Shown: piece after piece, positions 2,719 to 50,293 of the stretch | How the letters are laid out: every line of letters begins with the position of its first letter | Numbering within the stretch: the first letter of the stretch is position 1 | Source: a virus | DNA: 64,000 nt | IMG/VR virus record: IMGVR_UViG_3300042455_001850 | Span: 124,001-188,000 of that record | Strand: one strand, 5' to 3' | The notes under the pieces: generated by a model | Told to the model about the DNA's origin: nothing | The model's database searches: none | The model's input: the letters and a program-made list of their open reading frames with translations, nothing else | Made by a program: the position numbers and the translations under genes

Positions 2719-4644
2719 ATGGATAAAAATTTTTACATTAATAAATTAAATAAAACTTTAATTTCACAAACACATAACCCTCTTTTTTATAAAGGGGATA
2801 TAGTAGAAGGTTCTAAAATTCTAACTAAAGAAGTTGTAGACTCAATTAATGTTGATAGATGTTCTATATGGTTATACAACAAAAATAAAACATCTATTGT
2901 TTGCCAACAATTATATGTTAAATCTGAAAATATGTGGTATGATGGTTTAGAAATCTTTGAAAAGGATTTTGGACCGTATTTCGAAGAATTAATAAAGAAC
3001 CCAATAATAATAGCTAATGATGCTGAAAAACATCCAGCAACATCTTGTTTTACTGATGGTTATTTAAAACCACTGGGTATTAAATCTATGTTAGATGTAC
3101 CTATCATTTATTTTGGGGAAACTATTGGTGTTATATGTATTGAAAGTTTTACATTACGTGAATGGGATTCTTTTGAGGTTGATTTTACTCAATTATTATC
3201 TTCTTTATACACTTTTGCTTATTCAATAAAAGAAACAAACAATTTAAATAAAAAAATAGAAGAAACAGAAAAATTTATTGACGTATCGACAATTATATCT
3301 ACTGCTGATAAAAGAGGTAAAATTACATATGTTAATAAAAAATTTGAGGATGTTTCTGGGTGGTCTTTGGATGAGGTAGTTGGTAAAGACCATGTTATTG
3401 TTAATTCGGGATTACAACCTGATGGATATTGGGGTAAAATGTATGAAACGGTAATGAAAGGTGATGTATGGAATGACGTTGTTACCAATAAAGGAAAATC
3501 AGGAGAATTATATTACGTTGATACTTTTATTAGAGCAATTTTTGATACCGATGGTAAATTGGATGGATTTGCTTCAATAAGACAAGATGTTACAGAACTT
3601 AAAAAAAAGGAAGTTGAAATTCGCAATAGAATGAACGCGATAAATAAATCTAACGCAGTTATTGAGTTTGATTTAGAAGGAAACATCATTTTTGCTAATA
3701 ATTTGTTTTTAGAAACTATGGGATATTCTTTACAGGATGAAGTAGTTGGAAAACACCATAGAATTTTTATAGATGAGGAATACTCAAAAAGTGAAGAATA
3801 CTCTCTTTTTTGGGAAAAATTAAATGAAGGGGTGTTATTTACCGGTGAAATTACTAGAATTAAAAAAGACGGTTCTTTAGTGTATCTACAAGCAACATAC
3901 AATCCAGTTATCGGTTTAGATGGTAAGGTTTATCGTGTTATGAAAATCGCGACAGATATCACCAATTCCTACGAACAAAAGAAAGAAATTGAAAAGAAAA
4001 ACACTTACCTAGAACATGCGGCTAAAATATTAAGACACGATATGCATTCAGGTATTAATACTTATATGCCAAGAGGATTAAGTTCTTTAGAAAGAAGATT
4101 AACCCCCGAAGATATTAAAACTTTAAAAATTGAGGCCCCAATTAAAATGATTAAAGAGGGTTTAAAACATTCCCAAAAAGTATATAAAGGGGTTTACGAA
4201 TTTACAAATCTTGTAAAGAAAGATGTTGTTTTAAATAAAACGGAATGTAATTTAAAAGATATACTTGAGGATTATTTATCAGCGACAGCATATAGTAGTC
4301 AAGTTATTATTGATGAGTTACCAACGATAGAAGTTAATGAACCATTATTCTGTACCGCAGTCGATAATTTAATTCGTAATGGGTTAAAGTATAATGATAG
4401 TAATACAAAATTTGTTAAAATATATATGGAAGATGGTAATCTAATTATACAAGACAACGGTAGAGGGATTACACAAAAAGATTTTATTCATTTATCCCAA
4501 CCATATACCAGAAAAGAAGGCCAAAAAGAATCTGGAACTGGTCTAGGGCTTAATATATGTGTAGCTATTTTAGAAGAACATAAATTTAATATTTCGTGTG
4601 AGAAAAATGACATAGGGACAAAAATGAAAATTGAACTAAAATGA
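2719..4644 (+). CDS. Cytoplasmic sensor histidine kinase (GAF-PAS-PAS-DHp-ATPase)
   Basis: 641 residues without signal peptide or membrane span, so cytosolic. Order of domains: GAF about 26-168, PAS about 190-300 (ends in SIRQDVTEL), PAS about 312-425 (ends in KIATDIT), dimerisation/phosphoacceptor helix with RHDMHSGIN (His440 followed by Asp), and a GHKL ATPase with N-box DNLIRNGLKY (about 549-558), DNGRGI and GTGLGL. All catalytic boxes are intact, so autophosphorylation from ATP is expected. Its last 210 residues are close to those of the kinase at 5252, implying duplication with different sensors. TGA overlaps the next ATG (ATGA). Ligands of the GAF and PAS domains cannot be told. Confidence 0.9.
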   Translation: MDKNFYINKLNKTLISQTHNPLFYKGDIVEGSKILTKEVVDSINVDRCSIWLYNKNKTSIVCQQLYVKSENMWYDGLEIFEKDFGPYFEELIKNPIIIANDAEKHPATSCFTDGYLKPLGIKSMLDVPIIYFGETIGVICIESFTLREWDSFEVDFTQLLSSLYTFAYSIKETNNLNKKIEETEKFIDVSTIISTADKRGKITYVNKKFEDVSGWSLDEVVGKDHVIVNSGLQPDGYWGKMYETVMKGDVWNDVVTNKGKSGELYYVDTFIRAIFDTDGKLDGFASIRQDVTELKKKEVEIRNRMNAINKSNAVIEFDLEGNIIFANNLFLETMGYSLQDEVVGKHHRIFIDEEYSKSEEYSLFWEKLNEGVLFTGEITRIKKDGSLVYLQATYNPVIGLDGKVYRVMKIATDITNSYEQKKEIEKKNTYLEHAAKILRHDMHSGINTYMPRGLSSLERRLTPEDIKTLKIEAPIKMIKEGLKHSQKVYKGVYEFTNLVKKDVVLNKTECNLKDILEDYLSATAYSSQVIIDELPTIEVNEPLFCTAVDNLIRNGLKYNDSNTKFVKIYMEDGNLIIQDNGRGITQKDFIHLSQPYTRKEGQKESGTGLGLNICVAILEEHKFNISCEKNDIGTKMKIELK

Positions 4645-5255
4645 TAAAACTAAAAAATTTATTAACCATATTTTTCATAAGTATGGTAAGTATAGTGTAT
4701 TCACAACCAACCTACCCTATCCAGACACAATTAAAAGGTGATTCTGTGGTTATTCTTACAAAAAAACAATCTGATGATATTAATTCACTAATTGAGAATC
4801 AAAAAATTAGAATACAAAAATATAAAACAGAAATAAAATTAGTTAATGATACTAACACGTTATTAAATAACGATATTAAAATAAAAGATAGTGTTATTAA
4901 CCAATTGGATAGTTTGTTAACCGTCCAAAACAATTATTACGATAGTTTAATTTCTAAAATAGATACGTTAGAGAATTGGATTTTATCGTCGTCGATAGAT
5001 AATGGGTACCTATATTATTCTTGGCAAGACTCAACAGTTAAAGTTATTGATTTAAGTTTGTATATGTTAGTATCGCATAGAGGAAGTGGTAATTATAGTT
5101 TAATTACAAGAGGTGATGTTACTAATATATATTATTGGAAACAAATAAATCTACTTAAAGAAGAAAGTCCTGAGATTGGTTGGGAATTAAATATATCCCC
5201 AAAATATAAACCAAGAATAGTATTATTCCCATATAAATTAACCCCAAAATTATGA
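4641..5255 (+). CDS. Secreted coiled-coil protein between two kinases
   Basis: 204 residues. Signal peptide at 1-21 ending in VYSQ. Residues about 45-112 form a heptad-rich coiled coil (SLIENQKIRIQKYKTEIKL onward) and the C-terminal part is beta-rich with several aromatic residues. ATGA overlaps link it to the kinases on both sides, so it is probably made together with them. A periplasmic partner or ligand of the membrane kinase at 5252 is a reasonable inference. No family recognised. Confidence 0.8.
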   Translation: MIKLKNLLTIFFISMVSIVYSQPTYPIQTQLKGDSVVILTKKQSDDINSLIENQKIRIQKYKTEIKLVNDTNTLLNNDIKIKDSVINQLDSLLTVQNNYYDSLISKIDTLENWILSSSIDNGYLYYSWQDSTVKVIDLSLYMLVSHRGSGNYSLITRGDVTNIYYWKQINLLKEESPEIGWELNISPKYKPRIVLFPYKLTPKL

Positions 5256-6655
5256 TAAAAAATATTTTAATAACAATAATGTTTTTGGGTTTTTTTACTT
5301 CTTTAAATGTAAATTCACAGACTGATAATAACCCCAAAAAAACAGAGATTGAACCTACATGTCCTAGTGATAGTCGTATAACTAGTTTAATTAAAAAATT
5401 AAATTACGAACCAAATAAAAAATTAACTAAATACCAATCAAGCTTATGTCAAGAAATTGGTATCTCTTTTTATAATAAAGGTATGTATGATGAGTCAGAT
5501 TGGTATTTAGATAAGGTTAGTACCTATATTGATGTTGTTGATTTAAAACCTGAAAAAGTTTTTGACACACCTAAAGAAGAACCCGTACAAGAGTTAAGTG
5601 ACTCAGAATTATCTAGTATTAAAGCCGACCAAAAATTTTTAGATGACCTACCAAAATCATACGATAATTTATCTAAAAAAGATATAAAAAAAATTGCTGA
5701 TGAGATAGAGTCAAAACTCCAAAAACTATTAAAAGAAAAAAAAGAATTATTAAAAAATAAAGCTAGTCAAGAAGTTATCAGTTCTAAAACAAGTACTATA
5801 CAAATATTAGGTAAAGAAAAAAATATCATTAATCTTAGTGTTAAAAATGATGATTTAGTTACCGATAAAAAAACCTTAAAAAAATATTTATGGTGGTCCA
5901 CAATTGTTCTTTCTGTTTTGGTTTTAGGTATTATTGTTTTATTACAAAGAAAAACAATTAAAGTCCAAGACATAGAAATCGAAAACCAATTAAAAGACAT
6001 TAACAAGAAAAACACTTACCTTGAATATGCGGCTAGAATAATTAGACACGACATGCATTCAGGTATTAACACCTATATACCAAGAGGGTTATCGTCATTA
6101 GAAAAAAGAATTTCAATTGAGGAAATGAATAACTTAAAAATTACACCCTCAATTAAAATGATAAAAGATGGTTTGGCACACACACAAAAAGTATATAAAA
6201 GTGTTTATGAGTTTACAAACCTTGTGAAAAATACTGTAGTTTTAGATAGAAATATGGTTGATATAAAAGAATCTTTATTAAAATACTTAACAAATACATC
6301 ATATAAAAATCAGGTAGAAATTAGTGAATTAGTTACACTAAATGTAAATGAAACTCTTTTTTGGAACGCTATTGATAATTTAATTAAAAATGGGTTAAAA
6401 TATAATAGTAGTGAAAATAAAGAAATTAAAATTTACATGGATAATAATGATTTAATTATTGAAGATAATGGTGTTGGATTTTCACAAAAAGAGTTCGAAA
6501 GAACAACAGGTGAATATTTAAATAAAAAGAGTAATTCCGAAGTTGGTTTAGGTTTAGGTATAACCAAAACAATTTTAGAAGAACATGGTTTTAGTATGAT
6601 GTGTGAAAAAATTAACACTGGTACAAAAATAACGGTTAAATTAAATAAAAATTAA
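5252..6655 (+). CDS. Membrane sensor histidine kinase with periplasmic domain
   Basis: 467 residues. Signal peptide 1-22 (ends NVNSQ), a periplasmic region to about 210 with helical, TPR-like character near the start and a lysine-rich coiled coil, one membrane span about 213-233 (STIVLSVLVLGIIVLL), then a DHp helix with RHDMHSGIN (His266) and a GHKL ATPase with DNLIKNGLKY, DNGVGF and GLGLGI. The DHp and ATPase parts are near copies of those of the kinase at 2719, so both probably phosphorylate the same partner. That partner is most likely the receiver encoded eight bases downstream. All key residues are present. Confidence 0.9.
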   Translation: MIKNILITIMFLGFFTSLNVNSQTDNNPKKTEIEPTCPSDSRITSLIKKLNYEPNKKLTKYQSSLCQEIGISFYNKGMYDESDWYLDKVSTYIDVVDLKPEKVFDTPKEEPVQELSDSELSSIKADQKFLDDLPKSYDNLSKKDIKKIADEIESKLQKLLKEKKELLKNKASQEVISSKTSTIQILGKEKNIINLSVKNDDLVTDKKTLKKYLWWSTIVLSVLVLGIIVLLQRKTIKVQDIEIENQLKDINKKNTYLEYAARIIRHDMHSGINTYIPRGLSSLEKRISIEEMNNLKITPSIKMIKDGLAHTQKVYKSVYEFTNLVKNTVVLDRNMVDIKESLLKYLTNTSYKNQVEISELVTLNVNETLFWNAIDNLIKNGLKYNSSENKEIKIYMDNNDLIIEDNGVGFSQKEFERTTGEYLNKKSNSEVGLGLGITKTILEEHGFSMMCEKINTGTKITVKLNKN

Positions 6656-27082: not shown

Positions 27083-27117
27083 AAAGGGGACTTAATGTCC
27101 CCCTTTTTTTTTTTATT
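27083..27117. terminator. Terminator between converging genes
   Basis: AAAAGGGGAC / GTCCCCCTTTT around TTAAT, flanked by A and T runs. Confidence 0.75.
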
Positions 27118-28540
27118 AAATTTTTGTTGATTTTTCTTTTATAGTTTCTAAAACAGAAGTAGGTATATCTGATGTAGATTTACCAATGTAATCATCAAGG
27201 AAACCAGATTCAGTTTTAATACCATACATTGAAGTATCAGGTTGTACTTGTTTTCTTAGTTTCATCATGTTGATTGTTCTATATGATTCTGGGTCTAATG
27301 GGTCAACTTTAACTATCTTCTCAACTAAGTCTTCTGGATTAGATAAGAATACATAGAAAGAAGTTTGACCGTGTTTTGCTCTTTCTTCAGCACTCATAGA
27401 CCATTTTCTAAACAATACTTTACTATCTGTATTGTTTATTTGTTTTGCGTCAACTACTTTAGATAATTCATATTTTTGGTCATCTGTCAATTCCTTATTC
27501 AAGTCATTCATAACATCAATATTATTAAGAATAGATGGATTGAATTTAACTAAAGTCATTTTTTGTAACTCTGTTAAATGTTCTTGCATTTGTTTATAAT
27601 CATTAGCGTTAACTGTACCTTTGACGTAGTTAGTGATAAAGTCCATTTTTTGTTTATCATTAAGGTCAGACGCTAAAATACTAAAAGCTTTAGAGTTAAG
27701 TCCACCTTTTTTAATAATTTTACTAATCACGTTAGTTTTTTGTTCAGGTGTAATATAATCTTTAAATTTAGCGTACTCATCAAATTTAGGGTCATCAAGG
27801 AAAGAAGCTATTTTTATAGCTAATTTTTTCTTAGTGTGTGAAGGATTAAAAGCTTCCACAACCGCCATCATATCAGGAGTCACCCAATAAGGTGCGTTAC
27901 TGTGTGAATCATCTCGTGCATCCCACCAAGTTAAATCTCTACCATTACCATCAAATCTCCATTGTAAAGCGTATTTGTAATGTGTACTATCACTATTAAC
28001 TAAATTATTGTTAATAAAAAAGTAGAAATTTGAGTGTTCACTATAGGAGTCAAAATAAGTATTTAAATTATTATCACCACTTTTACCAGCTATACACCAC
28101 TTAGACCCAGCACCATATTTACATGAAGCTTCAACTGTGAATGGTACGTAAATCACAACACCATCTTTGTCATAAATTTTTGTCGCTTCTTTAGAAATTC
28201 TTTTGTCTTTTTCATCTTTTAAAGCTTGAGCAACAACATCATTTAATTCAGATAAAGATTTATAAGTATTAATATCTTTTTGTTTAATTCTAGGTAATAG
28301 TCTATGATAGTCCACTACAGCTTTAGCTATTTGGTCAGCCATTGGTATACTGTCATCTTGATTTTTACCTAAAGCGGTTTTAATCATCCAGTCAAGATAT
28401 TTGTTATTTCCTGATGGGTCAACCTCAACAAACATATCAACAAGTTCGGTATGGTCTTCACCATATTTTTTAATTACATCTTCTCTTCTACCTTCTAATA
28501 ATATAGTAGATTCTAAAATTTGAGATAAGTTAAATTTCAT
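27116..28540 (-). CDS. Propeptide protein, WCT-motif family member A
   Basis: 474 residues from ATG 28540. N terminus MKFNLSQILESTILLEGRRE ends in L-L-E before Gly. Family features: a repeat-like N-terminal block EDVIKKYGE ... VDPSGNNKYLDWM, then YDKDGVVIYVPFTVEASCKY and GAGSKWCIAG near 155. The WC pair is followed by a region of aromatic strands. The C-terminal half is helical. Four further members lie at 29889, 33140, 36995 and 49373. Role unknown; the invariant Cys could be catalytic. Confidence 0.75.
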   Translation of the reverse strand: MKFNLSQILESTILLEGRREDVIKKYGEDHTELVDMFVEVDPSGNNKYLDWMIKTALGKNQDDSIPMADQIAKAVVDYHRLLPRIKQKDINTYKSLSELNDVVAQALKDEKDKRISKEATKIYDKDGVVIYVPFTVEASCKYGAGSKWCIAGKSGDNNLNTYFDSYSEHSNFYFFINNNLVNSDSTHYKYALQWRFDGNGRDLTWWDARDDSHSNAPYWVTPDMMAVVEAFNPSHTKKKLAIKIASFLDDPKFDEYAKFKDYITPEQKTNVISKIIKKGGLNSKAFSILASDLNDKQKMDFITNYVKGTVNANDYKQMQEHLTELQKMTLVKFNPSILNNIDVMNDLNKELTDDQKYELSKVVDAKQINNTDSKVLFRKWSMSAEERAKHGQTSFYVFLSNPEDLVEKIVKVDPLDPESYRTINMMKLRKQVQPDTSMYGIKTESGFLDDYIGKSTSDIPTSVLETIKEKSTKI

Positions 28541-29888: not shown

Positions 29889-31064
29889 ATGAATATTAAA
29901 AAAATTATTTTAGAAGAAATTAAACGTTCACTTTTTGAGGGTATTGAACATATACAAAATCTTTATAAATCTTGGGCTAATAAGAAAAGTGGTAACCCTG
30001 AGGCTGCCATGAAAATAATGGATGATGTAATTGATAATAGAAGAAGTCTACCAAAAAAAGATTTTGCTAATTACAATTCTTATGAAGAATTATTAAAAGA
30101 TTTAAATCAAATTAAAAAGGCTAAAGCCCCTGATGATGTTACTAAGTTTTATGAAGATAAAGACTTGTTGGTAGTGGCAGCTAATACGTGGGAAGCGTCT
30201 TGTAAATATGGTGCGGGTTCTAAATGGTGTACAACTGCTAAAGATACTAGTTCATACTGGGATAGACATAATACTACTGGAACTGAATTCTTTTGGATTT
30301 TTAAAAACAAACCACAGGACGACCCAAATCATAAATTTTCTTACCATATTAAAGCAGGGGGTGGAACCGATTGGTGTAATGCAGTTAATAATTGTAAAAC
30401 AAATCCTCAAATTATAATTCATCTACATCCAAAATACGAACAAATTATTGAAAAATTAATGGAGTACCACAACTCAAGAAAAATGACGGCATCACCAGAA
30501 CAAATTGGTCGTATTAATTATAACTATATTAATGATTGGTTAACTAATAATGGACATGATTTTATTACAACATTTGAGGATTTAATAAATTTTAAGAGTT
30601 TTATTGAAAGTCACTCATATTTTATAATAAATAATGAAGTTATGGATGGATTATTTGACTCACCTGGTTTTGATCTGGAAGAGTTATTACACCTCGGTAT
30701 GGATAAGGAAGAGTTATATGATATGTTATTACAAGATTTGAATAATTCACCATTTAATGATTATTATATTGATAGAGATATGTTATTACGAGAATTAACC
30801 TATACGGTTAAATTAATATTAGGACAGAAGTATAATATTAACCCAGACCTACCCATTGGGGAAGAAATAGAGAGAGTGTTTGGCAGACCTTTAGAAATCT
30901 CAGATGTTTTAACTGAAGAAATAGTTGATGAATATGAAGAAGAATTTAATGAAATATTAGATGAAGTAGTAGGGTTTGAAATGAGTAACCATTATTATAA
31001 AGAAGCAGAATTATTTATTGGAGATTATTTAGAAGAATACAAAATAAAAAATAATCTTGATTAA
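29889..31064 (+). CDS. Propeptide protein, WCT-motif family member B
   Basis: 391 residues from ATG 29889. N terminus MNIKKIILEEIKRSLFEG offers I-L-E and L-F-E sites. FYEDKDLLVVAANTWEASCK then YGAGSKWCTTAKDTSSYW matches the family core. C-terminal half is helical and very acidic (DEYEEEFNEILDEVVG). Preceded by TATATTTAT and by the terminator of the structured RNA. Predicted virion-internal. Confidence 0.75.
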   Translation: MNIKKIILEEIKRSLFEGIEHIQNLYKSWANKKSGNPEAAMKIMDDVIDNRRSLPKKDFANYNSYEELLKDLNQIKKAKAPDDVTKFYEDKDLLVVAANTWEASCKYGAGSKWCTTAKDTSSYWDRHNTTGTEFFWIFKNKPQDDPNHKFSYHIKAGGGTDWCNAVNNCKTNPQIIIHLHPKYEQIIEKLMEYHNSRKMTASPEQIGRINYNYINDWLTNNGHDFITTFEDLINFKSFIESHSYFIINNEVMDGLFDSPGFDLEELLHLGMDKEELYDMLLQDLNNSPFNDYYIDRDMLLRELTYTVKLILGQKYNINPDLPIGEEIERVFGRPLEISDVLTEEIVDEYEEEFNEILDEVVGFEMSNHYYKEAELFIGDYLEEYKIKNNLD

Positions 31065-33139: not shown

Positions 33140-33967
33140 ATGTCTAGGAAATTAGAAGAATTAAAAACTAAATACGGTGTATCTGAAAGGTCTGTTGCGT
33201 TAATTGGTAGAATGGACCCAACCACTAACCAAAAATATATTGAATGGTTATTCAAAGTTAGATATATTAGTCTTACTAATGGTAAGTATAGACTTAACCC
33301 TGATTTTCCAGCATCATTGGAAAACCCTGTTAAAGAATCTTTAATTTGGTTTGAAAGAAACTTAAATGGCAAAATCCCAACTGATTTTAGAGATATAAAC
33401 AAATTTAAAACTGTCAATGAATTTCTTTTAAAGGTACAAGAATTAAATATACCTTCTAGGTCTGAGGTTAAGAATGATGTAAGAGTTGTTTTTGAAGATG
33501 ATAATTGGAAAATTCTTGTTCCACTTAGTTTCGATTCTTCTAAACTATATGGTATGGGTACTAAGTGGTGTACAACTCAAAAAGGTTATTACGATAGCTA
33601 TATGAGGGAAGGTTTCTTATACTACATCATAGATAAAAGAATTAATAGAAAGTTTGGAGTTCCTATTAATAGCAATAAAGGTTTAACTGTTAATGTTAAT
33701 AGTTTTACATTTTATAACAATGAAGATGCTGGTTTAAATCTAGGTCAAATTAAACTTATCTATGGTGACAATTTTAACTTTGCCGCAGAAAAAGTTAAAG
33801 ACGACTTTGTTCAACAACTTAAGTTGAAGTTAAAAACAAGATTCATGACAGAATCAAAAGTATCTGTACAACGTGCAGTAGAAACTTTAAGGTCTGTAGA
33901 CTTAACTAACGATGAGGTTAATGAAGTATTAACCTCTGTATTAAAAACAATGGGTGTTATCAAATAA
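33140..33967 (+). CDS. WCT-motif family member C (no propeptide)
   Basis: 275 residues. Begins straight at the family block: MSRKLEELKTKYGVSERSVA, MDPTTNQKYIEWLFKV near 31-46, then FEDDNWKILVPLSFDSSKLY and GMGTKWCTTQKGYYDSYMRE near 135-154. Unlike A, B and D it lacks the basic L-x-E leader and has a TATATTTG promoter, so it may act in the infected cell instead of in the virion. Confidence 0.75.
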   Translation: MSRKLEELKTKYGVSERSVALIGRMDPTTNQKYIEWLFKVRYISLTNGKYRLNPDFPASLENPVKESLIWFERNLNGKIPTDFRDINKFKTVNEFLLKVQELNIPSRSEVKNDVRVVFEDDNWKILVPLSFDSSKLYGMGTKWCTTQKGYYDSYMREGFLYYIIDKRINRKFGVPINSNKGLTVNVNSFTFYNNEDAGLNLGQIKLIYGDNFNFAAEKVKDDFVQQLKLKLKTRFMTESKVSVQRAVETLRSVDLTNDEVNEVLTSVLKTMGVIK

Positions 33968-34001
33968 AAAAAAGGTGGGATATCCCACCTTTTTTTTATC
34001 T
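33966..34001. terminator. Bidirectional terminator
   Basis: AAGGTGGGATATCCCACCTT, an 8-10 bp palindrome between A and T runs. Confidence 0.85.
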
Positions 34002-35075
34002 ATAAATCTTCTTATTTGTTCCATCAGAGTACACCTCAAAAAAGAACCCTCGGTAATCTTTATCTACCACTTGACCTAACAAATTAACGTATTTAATAAC
34101 CACTTTCTTTGTTGTTCTGTTATCGATTGATATTGGTCCATATATTTTATATTCACCATTAAAATCTACTTGGGTGATTCTATAGTAATTTATTGTTTCT
34201 CTAAAATTGTTATCTAAAAAACTATACTCCATTACTTGGTTACTATTACCAGCTGCGGTTTTATTACCTATAACCGTACTTTCATTAAACTCACCTGTGG
34301 TAGAACATTCAATTAAATAATAATCTGAATTATGTTCGGAAGCGGTTTTCCATACTAGTAGGTTACCCTCCTCATGGTTTGTACCTTCAAAAGAAATCAT
34401 TTCTACTGGTAGTGGGAATATTTCTATCAATTCAATATTATCAATCCACCATTCCTCACCAGCTGAATTTACTCTACAAAAAATATCGATTGCTATTTGA
34501 GAAATTCCAGATGGGAGATTCAAAGTAACCGTAGACGGTCCCGTTGTAGTTGAACCTGCAGGAGCTTGATATATGTCACCTGTTGGAGCCAAAGAATTTG
34601 TATATGAACCATTTGCATTATGACTGATTACACCTGTTGCAGTGTATGGCCAAATTGCATTTGCATTTCCTGTAATTCTAAGCTCAGAAACATATGCGCC
34701 TCCATTTCTTGAAACTTGAACTTCAACTAAATCTGTAGCATCCAATCCACGTGTTAATGCCGTTGGACCTGTAAATGTTTGTGACGCTAAACGGAATTTT
34801 AATTGGTATGGATGTGATGTATTTAACCCTGTAATATTTGGTAATACATACCAAGCTTGTTCAACTCCAGAAGTTCCACTTCCAGCTCCATATATTACAG
34901 CACTCTGAGTAGGAGAAACTGATATATTTGTTGCCCACGTTGCTGTTGGTGCTCCAAACCAACCAGAAGTTGCGTAACCTGTTGACCATGTTTCCATGTA
35001 GTCATATTGAATAACAGTTTGACCATATGACAATGTACTTAATAATAAAAATAACGATAATAATAATTTTTTCAT
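33996..35075 (-). CDS. Secreted protein with type IX secretion sorting domain
   Basis: 359 residues from ATG 35075. Signal MKKLLLSLFLLLSTLSYGQ. Residues about 20-230 form a lectin- or jellyroll-like sandwich. Then LPVEMISFEGTNHEEGNLLV begins the Fn-like stretch with KTASEHNSDYYLIE, AAGNSNQ and YYRITQVDFNGEYK common before type IX sorting domains. The end, VKYVNLLGQVVDKDYRGFFF then EVYSDGTNKKIYR, matches a type A C-terminal sorting domain. Expected to reach the host cell surface by the host's type IX system. Confidence 0.82.
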   Translation of the reverse strand: MKKLLLSLFLLLSTLSYGQTVIQYDYMETWSTGYATSGWFGAPTATWATNISVSPTQSAVIYGAGSGTSGVEQAWYVLPNITGLNTSHPYQLKFRLASQTFTGPTALTRGLDATDLVEVQVSRNGGAYVSELRITGNANAIWPYTATGVISHNANGSYTNSLAPTGDIYQAPAGSTTTGPSTVTLNLPSGISQIAIDIFCRVNSAGEEWWIDNIELIEIFPLPVEMISFEGTNHEEGNLLVWKTASEHNSDYYLIECSTTGEFNESTVIGNKTAAGNSNQVMEYSFLDNNFRETINYYRITQVDFNGEYKIYGPISIDNRTTKKVVIKYVNLLGQVVDKDYRGFFFEVYSDGTNKKIYR

Positions 35076-35183
35076 AATGTATTTATTTATAATTATCTTA
35101 ATATAAGAATTGTGTTTATTATTGTACATAAATTTTTAATAAAAAATAAATGATGAATGCTTTTTTAATTAGAAATAAGTTAT

Positions 35184-36981: not shown

Positions 36982-36990
36982 CATATTTAT
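36982..36990 (+). promoter_or_regulatory. NATATTTAT-type promoter
   Basis: CATATTTAT four bases before ATG 36995. Confidence 0.5.
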
Positions 36991-36994
36991 TATT

Positions 36995-38359
36995 ATGAAT
37001 ATTAAACAAACTACAACACTTATATTAGAGAAGGTTGAAAACCTTTTATTGGAAGGTAGACTTGAGGATGTTAAAGCTAAATACCCACAACCAATGTGGG
37101 GCCAAATTGATAGATTAGCTGATATAGACCCTTCAGGAAACCAAAAGTATTTGGATTGGTTGTCCAAAAATATGTTAAGAAAAACCATCAAATGGTTTAA
37201 AGATAACGCCAGTAGTGCTGGAAGTTGGCATGGGTGGGACATTACCCAAGTTCCTGACACAGCCGAAGACTCAAGATGGAATAGCATCCGTAATTTAACT
37301 AGGGAAATGCAATCACTTGGTAATGAAGATTTGTTAAAAGTTACTGATGATATTGAGTATTTCCATAAAAACCCATCAAAATACGAAAAAAAGGATATAA
37401 ATCAGTTTGGTAATTTAAAAGAACTTGAGGACGCGTCAAATGAGGCAAAATTAAAACTTTCAAGAAAAGAACAAAAAGAGACTGGTGTTGATAAGGTTTA
37501 TGAAGATGATGATTTCTTAATTTTGATGCCTAAAACACATAAGGCTTCATGTAGATACGGTTCTAACACTAGATGGTGTGTTACTATGAGAGGTTATACT
37601 GGTTATTACGAAAATTATTTTACACAAGGTCCTATATTCTTTTTAATGGATAAAAGAAGATTAGCTCCAACAAGTAGTATGGACACACCAAACTATTATA
37701 AAATAGCAATGCATTACCGTCCTTTTCGTGGTGGTTTAAGTAGGGGTTATAATAGAGCTTTAGAGAAAACAAGAGAATTGGGTAGGGAAGAGTTTATTAA
37801 CCAAGGTAGTGTCAGTAATTCTGTGATAGACTATTGGAATGTTGCTGATGAGAACAAACCAGAAAAAACAGTTTTAAAATATTTAGGTGGACCTGGTAGA
37901 GGCCAAGCAAAAAAGGGTACTGAAGCATTAGCTAAATTAAAAGAGGTAATGGAGAAGTACACTAAACAAGCTTTAGCTGATTATTATGATTCTTTGGGGG
38001 ATTCTTCTGAATCACTTGAAACTATTAGACAGTTAAAATTAAAACTATCAGAATTAAGGAATAAAAGAAATATTGTAGATAATAAATTAGATAGAGTAAA
38101 TACGGTTTATCGTTCTTTAAATAATTATAAAGAAAGGCTTGAATATGGTAGAGAAGAGGGTGATGATGATGAATATAATTGGGTTGTAGAACAACTTGAA
38201 AAATCTGAAAATTTTATTTCGTCCTATAGAACAAAAAGAGATGATATGGACCAACAATTAGGTGAATTAAATGAAAAAATAGAAAAACTACAGTTAGATT
38301 TAACTAGTAAAGAATTAGTATTCTATGACCCTGAAAAAAATGTATCTATAACTAGATAA
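36995..38359 (+). CDS. Propeptide protein, WCT-motif family member D
   Basis: 454 residues from ATG 36995. The leader MNIKQTTTLILEKVENLLLE ends in L-L-E before Gly, then GRLEDVKAKYPQ, DIDPSGNQKYLDWL, and VYEDDDFLILMPKTHKASCR with YGSNTRWCVTMRGYTGYYEN. The C-terminal 130 residues form a long coiled coil (LKLKLSELRNKRNIVDNKLD). The start block is nearly the same as member A, showing common descent. Confidence 0.78.
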   Translation: MNIKQTTTLILEKVENLLLEGRLEDVKAKYPQPMWGQIDRLADIDPSGNQKYLDWLSKNMLRKTIKWFKDNASSAGSWHGWDITQVPDTAEDSRWNSIRNLTREMQSLGNEDLLKVTDDIEYFHKNPSKYEKKDINQFGNLKELEDASNEAKLKLSRKEQKETGVDKVYEDDDFLILMPKTHKASCRYGSNTRWCVTMRGYTGYYENYFTQGPIFFLMDKRRLAPTSSMDTPNYYKIAMHYRPFRGGLSRGYNRALEKTRELGREEFINQGSVSNSVIDYWNVADENKPEKTVLKYLGGPGRGQAKKGTEALAKLKEVMEKYTKQALADYYDSLGDSSESLETIRQLKLKLSELRNKRNIVDNKLDRVNTVYRSLNNYKERLEYGREEGDDDEYNWVVEQLEKSENFISSYRTKRDDMDQQLGELNEKIEKLQLDLTSKELVFYDPEKNVSITR

Positions 38360-38370
38360 AAAATTTATAT

Positions 38371-38556
38371 ATGATTATTATAGAAGTTGTTAAAGGCAAC
38401 ATTGAAAGAGCCCTTAAAGAGTATAAGGGTAAGGTTATAAAAACTCGTCAGATGTCACAATTAAATGATAGAAAAGAATTTGATAAGAAGTCTGTAAGAA
38501 AGAGAAGAGAAAAATCTAAAGGCGTTTATAAAGAGAAAAAAAGAAGGGAGGAATAA
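38371..38556 (+). CDS. rpsU: Ribosomal protein bS21 homologue
   Basis: 61 residues. MIIIEVVKGNIERALKEYKG then KVIKTRQMSQLNDRKEFDKK and SVRKRREKSKG follow the bS21 pattern (I-x-V-x-x-G-x-I-x-x-A-L-K-x-x-K, K-T, L-x-x-R-x-x-F-x-K-x-S-x-x-R-R) of Bacteroidota. bS21 sits near the 3' end of 16S rRNA at the anti-Shine-Dalgarno site and affects initiation. A phage copy could bias initiation towards phage mRNAs. Twelve bases after WCT member D. Confidence 0.88.
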   Translation: MIIIEVVKGNIERALKEYKGKVIKTRQMSQLNDRKEFDKKSVRKRREKSKGVYKEKKRREE

Positions 38557-38574
38557 TTTCCTCCCTTTTTTATT
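38543..38574. terminator. Bidirectional terminator
   Basis: GGGAGGAA / TTTCCTCCC around TAAT with flanking A and T runs; overlaps the bS21 end. Confidence 0.8.
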
Positions 38575-39496
38575 GAATTCTAATCATCCAAACTAATTTG
38601 TTATTGTTTATACCAAACAAATCGGTAAAGCTAACTGAGTTAATTTGACCATCACTAACAAACGTATTTGGTACCATCCCACTGTAATCACCACCGATAG
38701 TGTAGAATCCATAAAGGTTCAATGTAGACATGTTAGAACCCAAACCAGTAGTTACATTATAACTTTTTGGTGTACCACTATTAATAGTGTATTGAGTGTT
38801 ATTCACGAAGTACAAAGTATCGTTAGGGTAGTTATTAGAAAAACCATCATAAAATTTAGTCACAACCCATTTAGTACCTACAATATCATTTTGTGTAGAA
38901 CTACCATTACCAAATACTCCTTGATAAACATAACCTGAGATAGCGTTTGGTTCACACCCGTTACAAACATTACCTTGTTTAACAAAAGTTAATGTAGTAA
39001 AGATTTTATAGTTAACACCACCACTAGATAAATAATCTTCATTAAGTTTAACAGTCATTGCAGTATTGTTGATGTTGATTATAATCAAAGGTCTGGAAGA
39101 ACCATTCTCTAACCCAATAACTGAGATAGCATCACCTGAGTGTGTAAAATTATAGAAGTTAGAACTATTCAAAATAAAATCAGTAGTAGTAAATCTCCAA
39201 GTAGTAACACCTTTAACAATGTCATCAAAAGGTACAGCAGAACCGTTGAAAGGGTCTAGGCTACTTTGATTTTGTCCTGAACCAAAATGGTCATAAAGAG
39301 TTTTACTACCGTTATCAAGATTTTGGACATACAATCTACCTGATGCCAAAGTCCAATCAATATCCATAAAATTATAGATAGTATCGTTAGTAACGATTGT
39401 GTTGTTAGGCTTTTCAATCACCTCTTTCTTACAAGAAAAAGATAATAAAATTATTGATGCCAAAAAAATGTTTGTGATAACTGTTGAAATTTTCAT
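38570..39496 (-). CDS. Lipoprotein, beta-rich
   Basis: 308 residues from ATG 39496. Signal MKISTVITNIFLASIILLSF then SCKKE lipobox. The mature protein is rich in Asn, Thr and Gly with repeated beta patterns (two related halves around WRFTTTDFIL and TKWVVTKFYDG) like lipocalin-type Bacteroidota lipoproteins. CAAATATA at 39525-39532 is a TATATTTG promoter on the minus strand. Envelope-located; role unknown. Confidence 0.78.
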   Translation of the reverse strand: MKISTVITNIFLASIILLSFSCKKEVIEKPNNTIVTNDTIYNFMDIDWTLASGRLYVQNLDNGSKTLYDHFGSGQNQSSLDPFNGSAVPFDDIVKGVTTWRFTTTDFILNSSNFYNFTHSGDAISVIGLENGSSRPLIIININNTAMTVKLNEDYLSSGGVNYKIFTTLTFVKQGNVCNGCEPNAISGYVYQGVFGNGSSTQNDIVGTKWVVTKFYDGFSNNYPNDTLYFVNNTQYTINSGTPKSYNVTTGLGSNMSTLNLYGFYTIGGDYSGMVPNTFVSDGQINSVSFTDLFGINNNKLVWMIRIQ

Positions 39497-49372: not shown

Positions 49373-50293
49373 ATGGGAAAAAAAGATTTAAAAAAACAAT
49401 ACACCAATTTGGATGTGAGTGTCATAGATTATGTTTCTAGGATAGACCCTAGTAAAACAAATAAATTAACACCATTTCTTTTGAAAATCCTATCTAAAAA
49501 TATTTTAGATAGAGGTTACATCGCCAAAAAAGAATTTAGTGATATAACTAATAATGGAATTGATTTATATATTATTGAAATGTTGATAGATGTTATAGGT
49601 GACGGTTACCAAGGACTTGAAACATTAAGGGAGTTTAATGAACATCTAGAAAATAATCGTATTGAAAATACTGATATTAATCAATATGAGACGTGGGAAG
49701 ATTTGTTGATACAAAAAGGTATTGCTGATGTAAAACAAATGGATAAACAATTAACTAAACAAGTTGAACGTATTTACGAAGACTCTACTTGGTTAGTAAT
49801 TAAACCTTTATCATTTAGTGCTTCTTTAGCTTATGGTTCAGGTACAAAATGGTGTACAGCCATGAAAATGGAACCAACATATTTTTATCGATATGCTAGT
49901 GAAGGTATTTTGTTATATGTAATTAATAAAGTTAACGGTAAAAAATATGGTTTTAATTCCTCACCTAATGAATTTTCTGTTTGGAATACTACTGATAATA
50001 GAATTGATTCTTTAGAGTCAGGAGTTCCTTACGAGATTTTATCTATAATTAGAGAAAAATCAAATCTAAGTAATAACCCAAAAAATTCAGAATTATTTTC
50101 TGATGAGGAAATTAAAAATAAAGATAAATATTATGGACAACTTAAAATAGTACCACCATTATATGTTATCACGGATGACGAAGAGAGGGCTTACCCTTCC
50201 GAAATGTTAACGGAGGACATAGAGATTGGTGATTATACTATCTATGAAAGTCAGGCATATTCTGAAGAAGGAATGGAAGAGGTTGGATTTTGA
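49373..50293 (+). CDS. WCT-motif family member E (no propeptide)
   Basis: 306 residues. MGKKDLKKQYTNLDVSVIDY, RIDPSKTNKLTPFLLKIL, then IYEDSTWLVIKPLSFSASLA and YGSGTKWCTAMKMEPTYFYR with YASEGILLYVINK. Compact like member C and likewise without the L-x-E leader. The C terminus is acidic. The next gene begins nine bases after its stop. Confidence 0.75.
   Translation: MGKKDLKKQYTNLDVSVIDYVSRIDPSKTNKLTPFLLKILSKNILDRGYIAKKEFSDITNNGIDLYIIEMLIDVIGDGYQGLETLREFNEHLENNRIENTDINQYETWEDLLIQKGIADVKQMDKQLTKQVERIYEDSTWLVIKPLSFSASLAYGSGTKWCTAMKMEPTYFYRYASEGILLYVINKVNGKKYGFNSSPNEFSVWNTTDNRIDSLESGVPYEILSIIREKSNLSNNPKNSELFSDEEIKNKDKYYGQLKIVPPLYVITDDEERAYPSEMLTEDIEIGDYTIYESQAYSEEGMEEVGF

Follow-up and report, generated by a model that had tools for sequence, protein, structure and literature searches.

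bS21 is the ribosomal protein that phages carry most often. Its occurrence in Bacteroidota phages has been described: Chen et al. (2022; PMC9723584) report such copies, in which an aromatic residue that faces the anti-Shine-Dalgarno (ASD) sequence is conserved, note that related phages express bS21 together with their structural genes, and put forward the hypothesis that phage bS21 redirects ribosomes to phage messages. In the huge-phage clades a–e of that study, bS21 sits within a block of terminase, portal, protease and capsid genes and is encoded on the opposite strand. On the host side, Flavobacterium johnsoniae ribosomes that lack bS21 favour mRNAs with a Shine-Dalgarno (SD) sequence, rpsU among them, a preference that replete ribosomes do not show; within host bS21, Y54 stacks on A1534, forming an ASD contact (PMC9976891). 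The extreme SD of rpsU is the published autoregulatory element of the host (McNutt et al., 2023; PMC9976891). In addition, the phage-encoded bS21 of Pelagibacter phage HTVC008M enters E. coli 70S ribosomes, which then keep ~5% of their activity (Mizuno et al., 2019; PMC6375957); this phage differs from the present one in host phylum, and no ASD block of the F. johnsoniae type is known from that system.

The gene considered here lies in a window of 64,000 nucleotides, bases 124001–188000 of a 195,712-bp (195.7-kb) virus record, and is the single bS21 copy of that record. The features of its locus, in window coordinates, are:

36983..36990, + strand: promoter-like motif ATATTTAT, 12 nt upstream of ATG 36995, called by motif and spacing
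36995..38359, + strand: first cistron, 454 aa, phrog_17056/28193 domain, function unassigned, start chosen by promoter motif
38340..38370, + strand: bS21 start region, A/T-rich, without SD, ASD pairing −1.1 kcal/mol
38371..38556, + strand: phage bS21 gene, 61 aa, ATG to TAA, called by Pfam and PDB matches, Y53 aligned with F. johnsoniae Y54
38540..38571, + strand: hairpin then T run, an intrinsic terminator downstream of bS21 whose loop contains the stop codon (−20.5 kcal/mol, z −4.17)
38570..39496, − strand: putative lipoprotein gene facing bS21, a neighbour conserved at six related phage loci

The first-pass annotation had called the 61-aa product a clear bS21 homologue, and this was confirmed. 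The ORF scores 31.4 bits (E 1.6e-7) against Pfam PF01165 (Ribosomal_S21), above the cut-off of 27 bits, and slightly misses that of NCBIfam TIGR00030, the cellular bS21 equivalog (25.9 versus 28.95 bits). Its best bS21 matches in the PDB are 9i5v (1.2e-7) and 7jil (4.5e-6), with the remaining bS21 chains at 0.04 or above; 7jil is the F. johnsoniae ribosome, and the nearest solved relatives are Bacteroidota-type bS21. The ORF is not a chance one, because a scan of viral contigs found relatives encoded on 101 IMG/VR stretches. An AlphaFold2 model built from 19 phage sequences shows the two helices of bS21 (residues 11–34 and 40–60; mean pLDDT 82), and a Foldseek search with this model gave no significant match. 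Judged by its sequence, the ORF at 38371–38556 is a genuine bS21 gene.

The proposed Bacteroidota setting is likewise supported, by the affinity of bS21, by TAHHTTTG promoters spaced as in F. johnsoniae and by A-rich starts without SD. The phage is a myovirus, as a tail sheath is encoded at 12.5–15.3 kb of the record. Two adjacent small ORFs (L087:18469-19090; 118.5–119.1 kb of the record), ~43 kb away from bS21, match pieces of a T4-type major capsid protein in swapped order (profile 304–366, then 132–195). The record holds no full-length T4-type major capsid match, a large terminase (PF17289) was not found, and T4-type prohead protease (PF03420) had no match here or in any control genome, so that its absence carries no information. 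The window also contains at least 14 tRNA genes and a complete phage tmRNA (29236–29628, +; Rfam 99.3 bits), whose tag, ANATVGHFVTEGATVAA, is unusual. Unusually for a phage, there are in addition genes for two histidine-kinase-like proteins (2719–4644 and 5252–6655, +), the first of which has PAS domains. A putative secreted protein (33996–35129, −) has a signal peptide and a C-terminus like that of Bacteroidota type IX secretion cargo; it has no Pfam or NCBIfam match, so its cargo-like appearance is not confirmed by these libraries.

Within the locus, bS21 is the second cistron, starting 11 nt past the stop of the 454-aa gene on the same strand. For the latter gene, the promoter motif makes ATG 36995 a more likely start than GTG 36941, and that motif is likely the promoter of a two-gene transcript, predicted to be leaderless or nearly so. 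The annotation had bS21 following a late gene, which fits the late-type promoter motif of the 454-aa gene, but PHROGs recognised no structural gene among the scanned neighbours, the sole exception being a weak coiled-coil similarity between the 454-aa gene itself and a tape-measure family. Of the related loci, the two closest (L002 and L004) also have the 454-aa gene. This gene is, in addition, one of five diverged paralogues with the phrog_17056/28193 domain (27116–28540 on the − strand; 29889–31064, 33140–33967, 36995–38359 and 49373–50293 on the + strand), all with a YGxxTxWC or YGAGSKWC-like motif, of which this one directly precedes bS21. Compared with clades a–e of Chen et al. (PMC9723584), the present bS21 is alike in being closest to Bacteroidetes, in keeping aromatic 54, in diverging around positions 21–28 and in inviting the identical take-over hypothesis. 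It differs in lying on the same strand as the preceding gene and in facing a lipoprotein gene, with no TerL/portal/protease/MCP block recognised by PHROGs among the scanned neighbours. The passages on those clades give neither SD status nor promoter spacing.

A central result of our comparison is that the SD present on the host rpsU genes examined is absent from phage bS21. ViennaRNA duplexfold, applied to the 16S tail and the 22 nt upstream of each start codon, gave extreme pairing in 69/69 distinct host starts, at −17.5 to −23.3 kcal/mol, drawn from 80 rpsU loci, nearly all of Flavobacteriia. The 36 distinct phage starts, not independent counts because many of the sequences are closely related, averaged −2.15 kcal/mol, with the strongest at −8.6 and none under the −13 kcal/mol taken to mark an autoregulated rpsU; the present start (−1.1) lies among them. 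Background means were −1.6 kcal/mol for ordinary phage genes and −1.7 for host neighbour ORFs. Since the strong host SD is absent, the phage gene stands outside the rpsU loop at the level of the start signal, and phage bS21 could be produced outside host feedback. No host-versus-phage comparison of bS21 SDs was found in the literature searched, with subscription journals and preprints largely outside it, and the absent control signal on viral bS21 copies seems to be new.

Leaderless-looking mRNAs, also claimed in the annotation, are supported for some of the phage's genes; bS21, as a second cistron, is not among them. Phage start regions, with gene starts called by a simple longest-ATG rule, are SD-depleted and A-rich, as in F. 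johnsoniae, and ~25 genes have a promoter motif whose position puts the predicted transcription start on the ATG or no more than 3 nt from it. Eight have TAHHTTTG starting exactly 12 nt before the ATG; because this motif occupies −12 to −5 relative to the transcription start in F. johnsoniae, their messages are predicted to begin at the ATG. The second motif, ATATTTAT, has no clear −33 element and two preferred distances from start codons: ATATTT[AG]T stands at −14 to −12 in 18 genes, where shuffled sequences predict 0.5 and 6191 other ATGs give 3; 21 genes have it at −26 to −20 and 2 at −19 to −15. The −14 to −12 class, which includes the gene directly before bS21, has a predicted leader of ~0–3 nt, all transcription starts being predictions. 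A short N-terminal helix ending in [ILV][ILV]xE occurs in 14/18 leaderless-class genes versus 45/235 others (Fisher p 5e-7; for example, the genes at 29889, 36995, 51794, 59457 and 60211) and recalls T4 head-targeting sequences; the strict [LI]xEG head-targeting motif is not enriched at N-termini (11 versus 6.9 expected). Other records of phages with bS21 also show leaderless-type spacing above its control, most of them clearly and one weakly, and four Bacteroidota phages without bS21, a small set of phages that are not close relatives, show no clear excess.

Among 35 distinct phage relatives, 18 have ATATTT[AG] at −13/−14 of bS21, 22 have TATATTT[AG] further upstream, and 11 have both. In 22/22 cases (L005–L079) the upstream motif lies exactly 15 nt before a conserved AGTCAAA, ~30–55 nt before bS21, so the bS21 transcripts of these relatives are probably leadered too; by implication, Chen-type phages make a leadered bS21 mRNA besides any leaderless one. 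AGTCAAA is probably a fixed transcript 5′ end and perhaps a leader element. A leaderless bS21 mRNA was accordingly downgraded, as was fitting also because the window's own bS21 has no such motif.

Alignment with host bS21, which the annotation had proposed as a check, gave a divided answer. Y53 aligns with F. johnsoniae Y54, so the ASD-stacking tyrosine (the one ASD-pocket contact compared) is kept; the position is Y in 82% and H in 18% of 34 distinct full-length phage relatives. Mid-protein, phage and host diverge sharply at F. johnsoniae positions 21, 23, 24, 27–31 and 33 (phage KVIKTRQM versus host KFDKTGTV, also given as KRKFDKTG). These positions agree with and extend the four divergent residues given by Chen et al. 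(PMC9723584). Thus, phage bS21 shares with host Flavobacteriia bS21 (McNutt et al., 2023; PMC9976891) the protein family and the tyrosine, and has neither the extreme, autoregulating SD nor the host mid-protein sequence.

The best explanation, to which we give a probability of roughly 45%, is that phage bS21 replaces host bS21, the ASD stays hidden, host rpsU is switched off and the phage's own mRNA escapes control. The Bacteroidota-type phage protein would displace host bS21 on the 30S platform, an entry into ribosomes that is plausible by analogy with the pelagiphage protein in E. coli. Ribosomes carrying it would keep the ASD hidden, because the stacking tyrosine is kept, and would hold host rpsU translation down. 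Having no SD, the phage bS21 mRNA would not need ribosomes devoid of bS21, the ones driving translation of host rpsU, and would not be shut off when ribosomes are replete. The host could then no longer renew its bS21, and the phage copy, presumably made late, would take over. McNutt et al. (PMC9976891) suggest instead that autoregulation is a host counter-measure that restores host bS21. Against the escape explanation, phage genes generally lack SDs, and the SD-less bS21 start may be an unselected by-product of this.

The sequence evidence favours escape from rpsU feedback, which the annotation had not raised, at least as well as the selective favouring of phage messages, the hypothesis already published by Chen et al. 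(2022). Selectivity would mean that ribosomes with phage bS21 initiate better on leaderless or very-short-leader late phage mRNAs, with the altered segment beside the mRNA path reducing the use of host leaders. The sharp KVIKTRQM divergence, matching Chen et al., is consistent with this, as are the 18 ATATTT[AG]T genes (versus 0.5 expected), the eight TAHHTTTG genes and the recurrence of the spacing in further phages with bS21 but not in the four without it; in F. johnsoniae, 87% of analysed transcripts with a probable promoter have leaders >10 nt. However, most genes of the present phage are without leaderless spacing and the bS21-less comparison is small and outside close relatives, and we regard selectivity as possible but doubtful. 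Plain supply is also a serious alternative, in which phage bS21 keeps ribosomes complete when host rpsU expression fails, with neither selectivity nor a feedback trick. The retained ribosome-binding features and tyrosine would suit it, as would the tRNAs and tmRNA, a general translation-support kit, but the consistent phage-specific divergence in mid-protein would be unexpected, and we think this explanation rather unlikely.

Two further possibilities appear very improbable. Phage bS21 might chiefly lower the activity of host ribosomes on host mRNAs, as the ~5% activity of E. coli ribosomes with pelagiphage bS21 (PMC6375957) could suggest; that pair is heterologous, however, and late phage genes themselves require active ribosomes. 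Or, perhaps bS21 is packaged in the virion and acts on entry, a possibility raised by Chen et al. (PMC9723584) and consistent with the N-terminal motif of the preceding 454-aa cistron, which resembles head-targeting sequences, but bS21 itself has no such motif.

The full split between host and phage, with an extreme SD in all host rpsU examined and none in phage bS21, makes the escape mechanism testable with F. johnsoniae rpsU reporters, and the leaderless-type promoters point out phage messages for tests of selectivity. It is tempting to speculate, unlikely as we hold it to be, that phage bS21 is the repressor half of the rpsU circuit without its target site, displacing host bS21 and building phage-specialised ribosomes tuned to leaderless or short-leader late mRNAs. 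If true, a virus would here have taken over a feedback loop of the ribosome.
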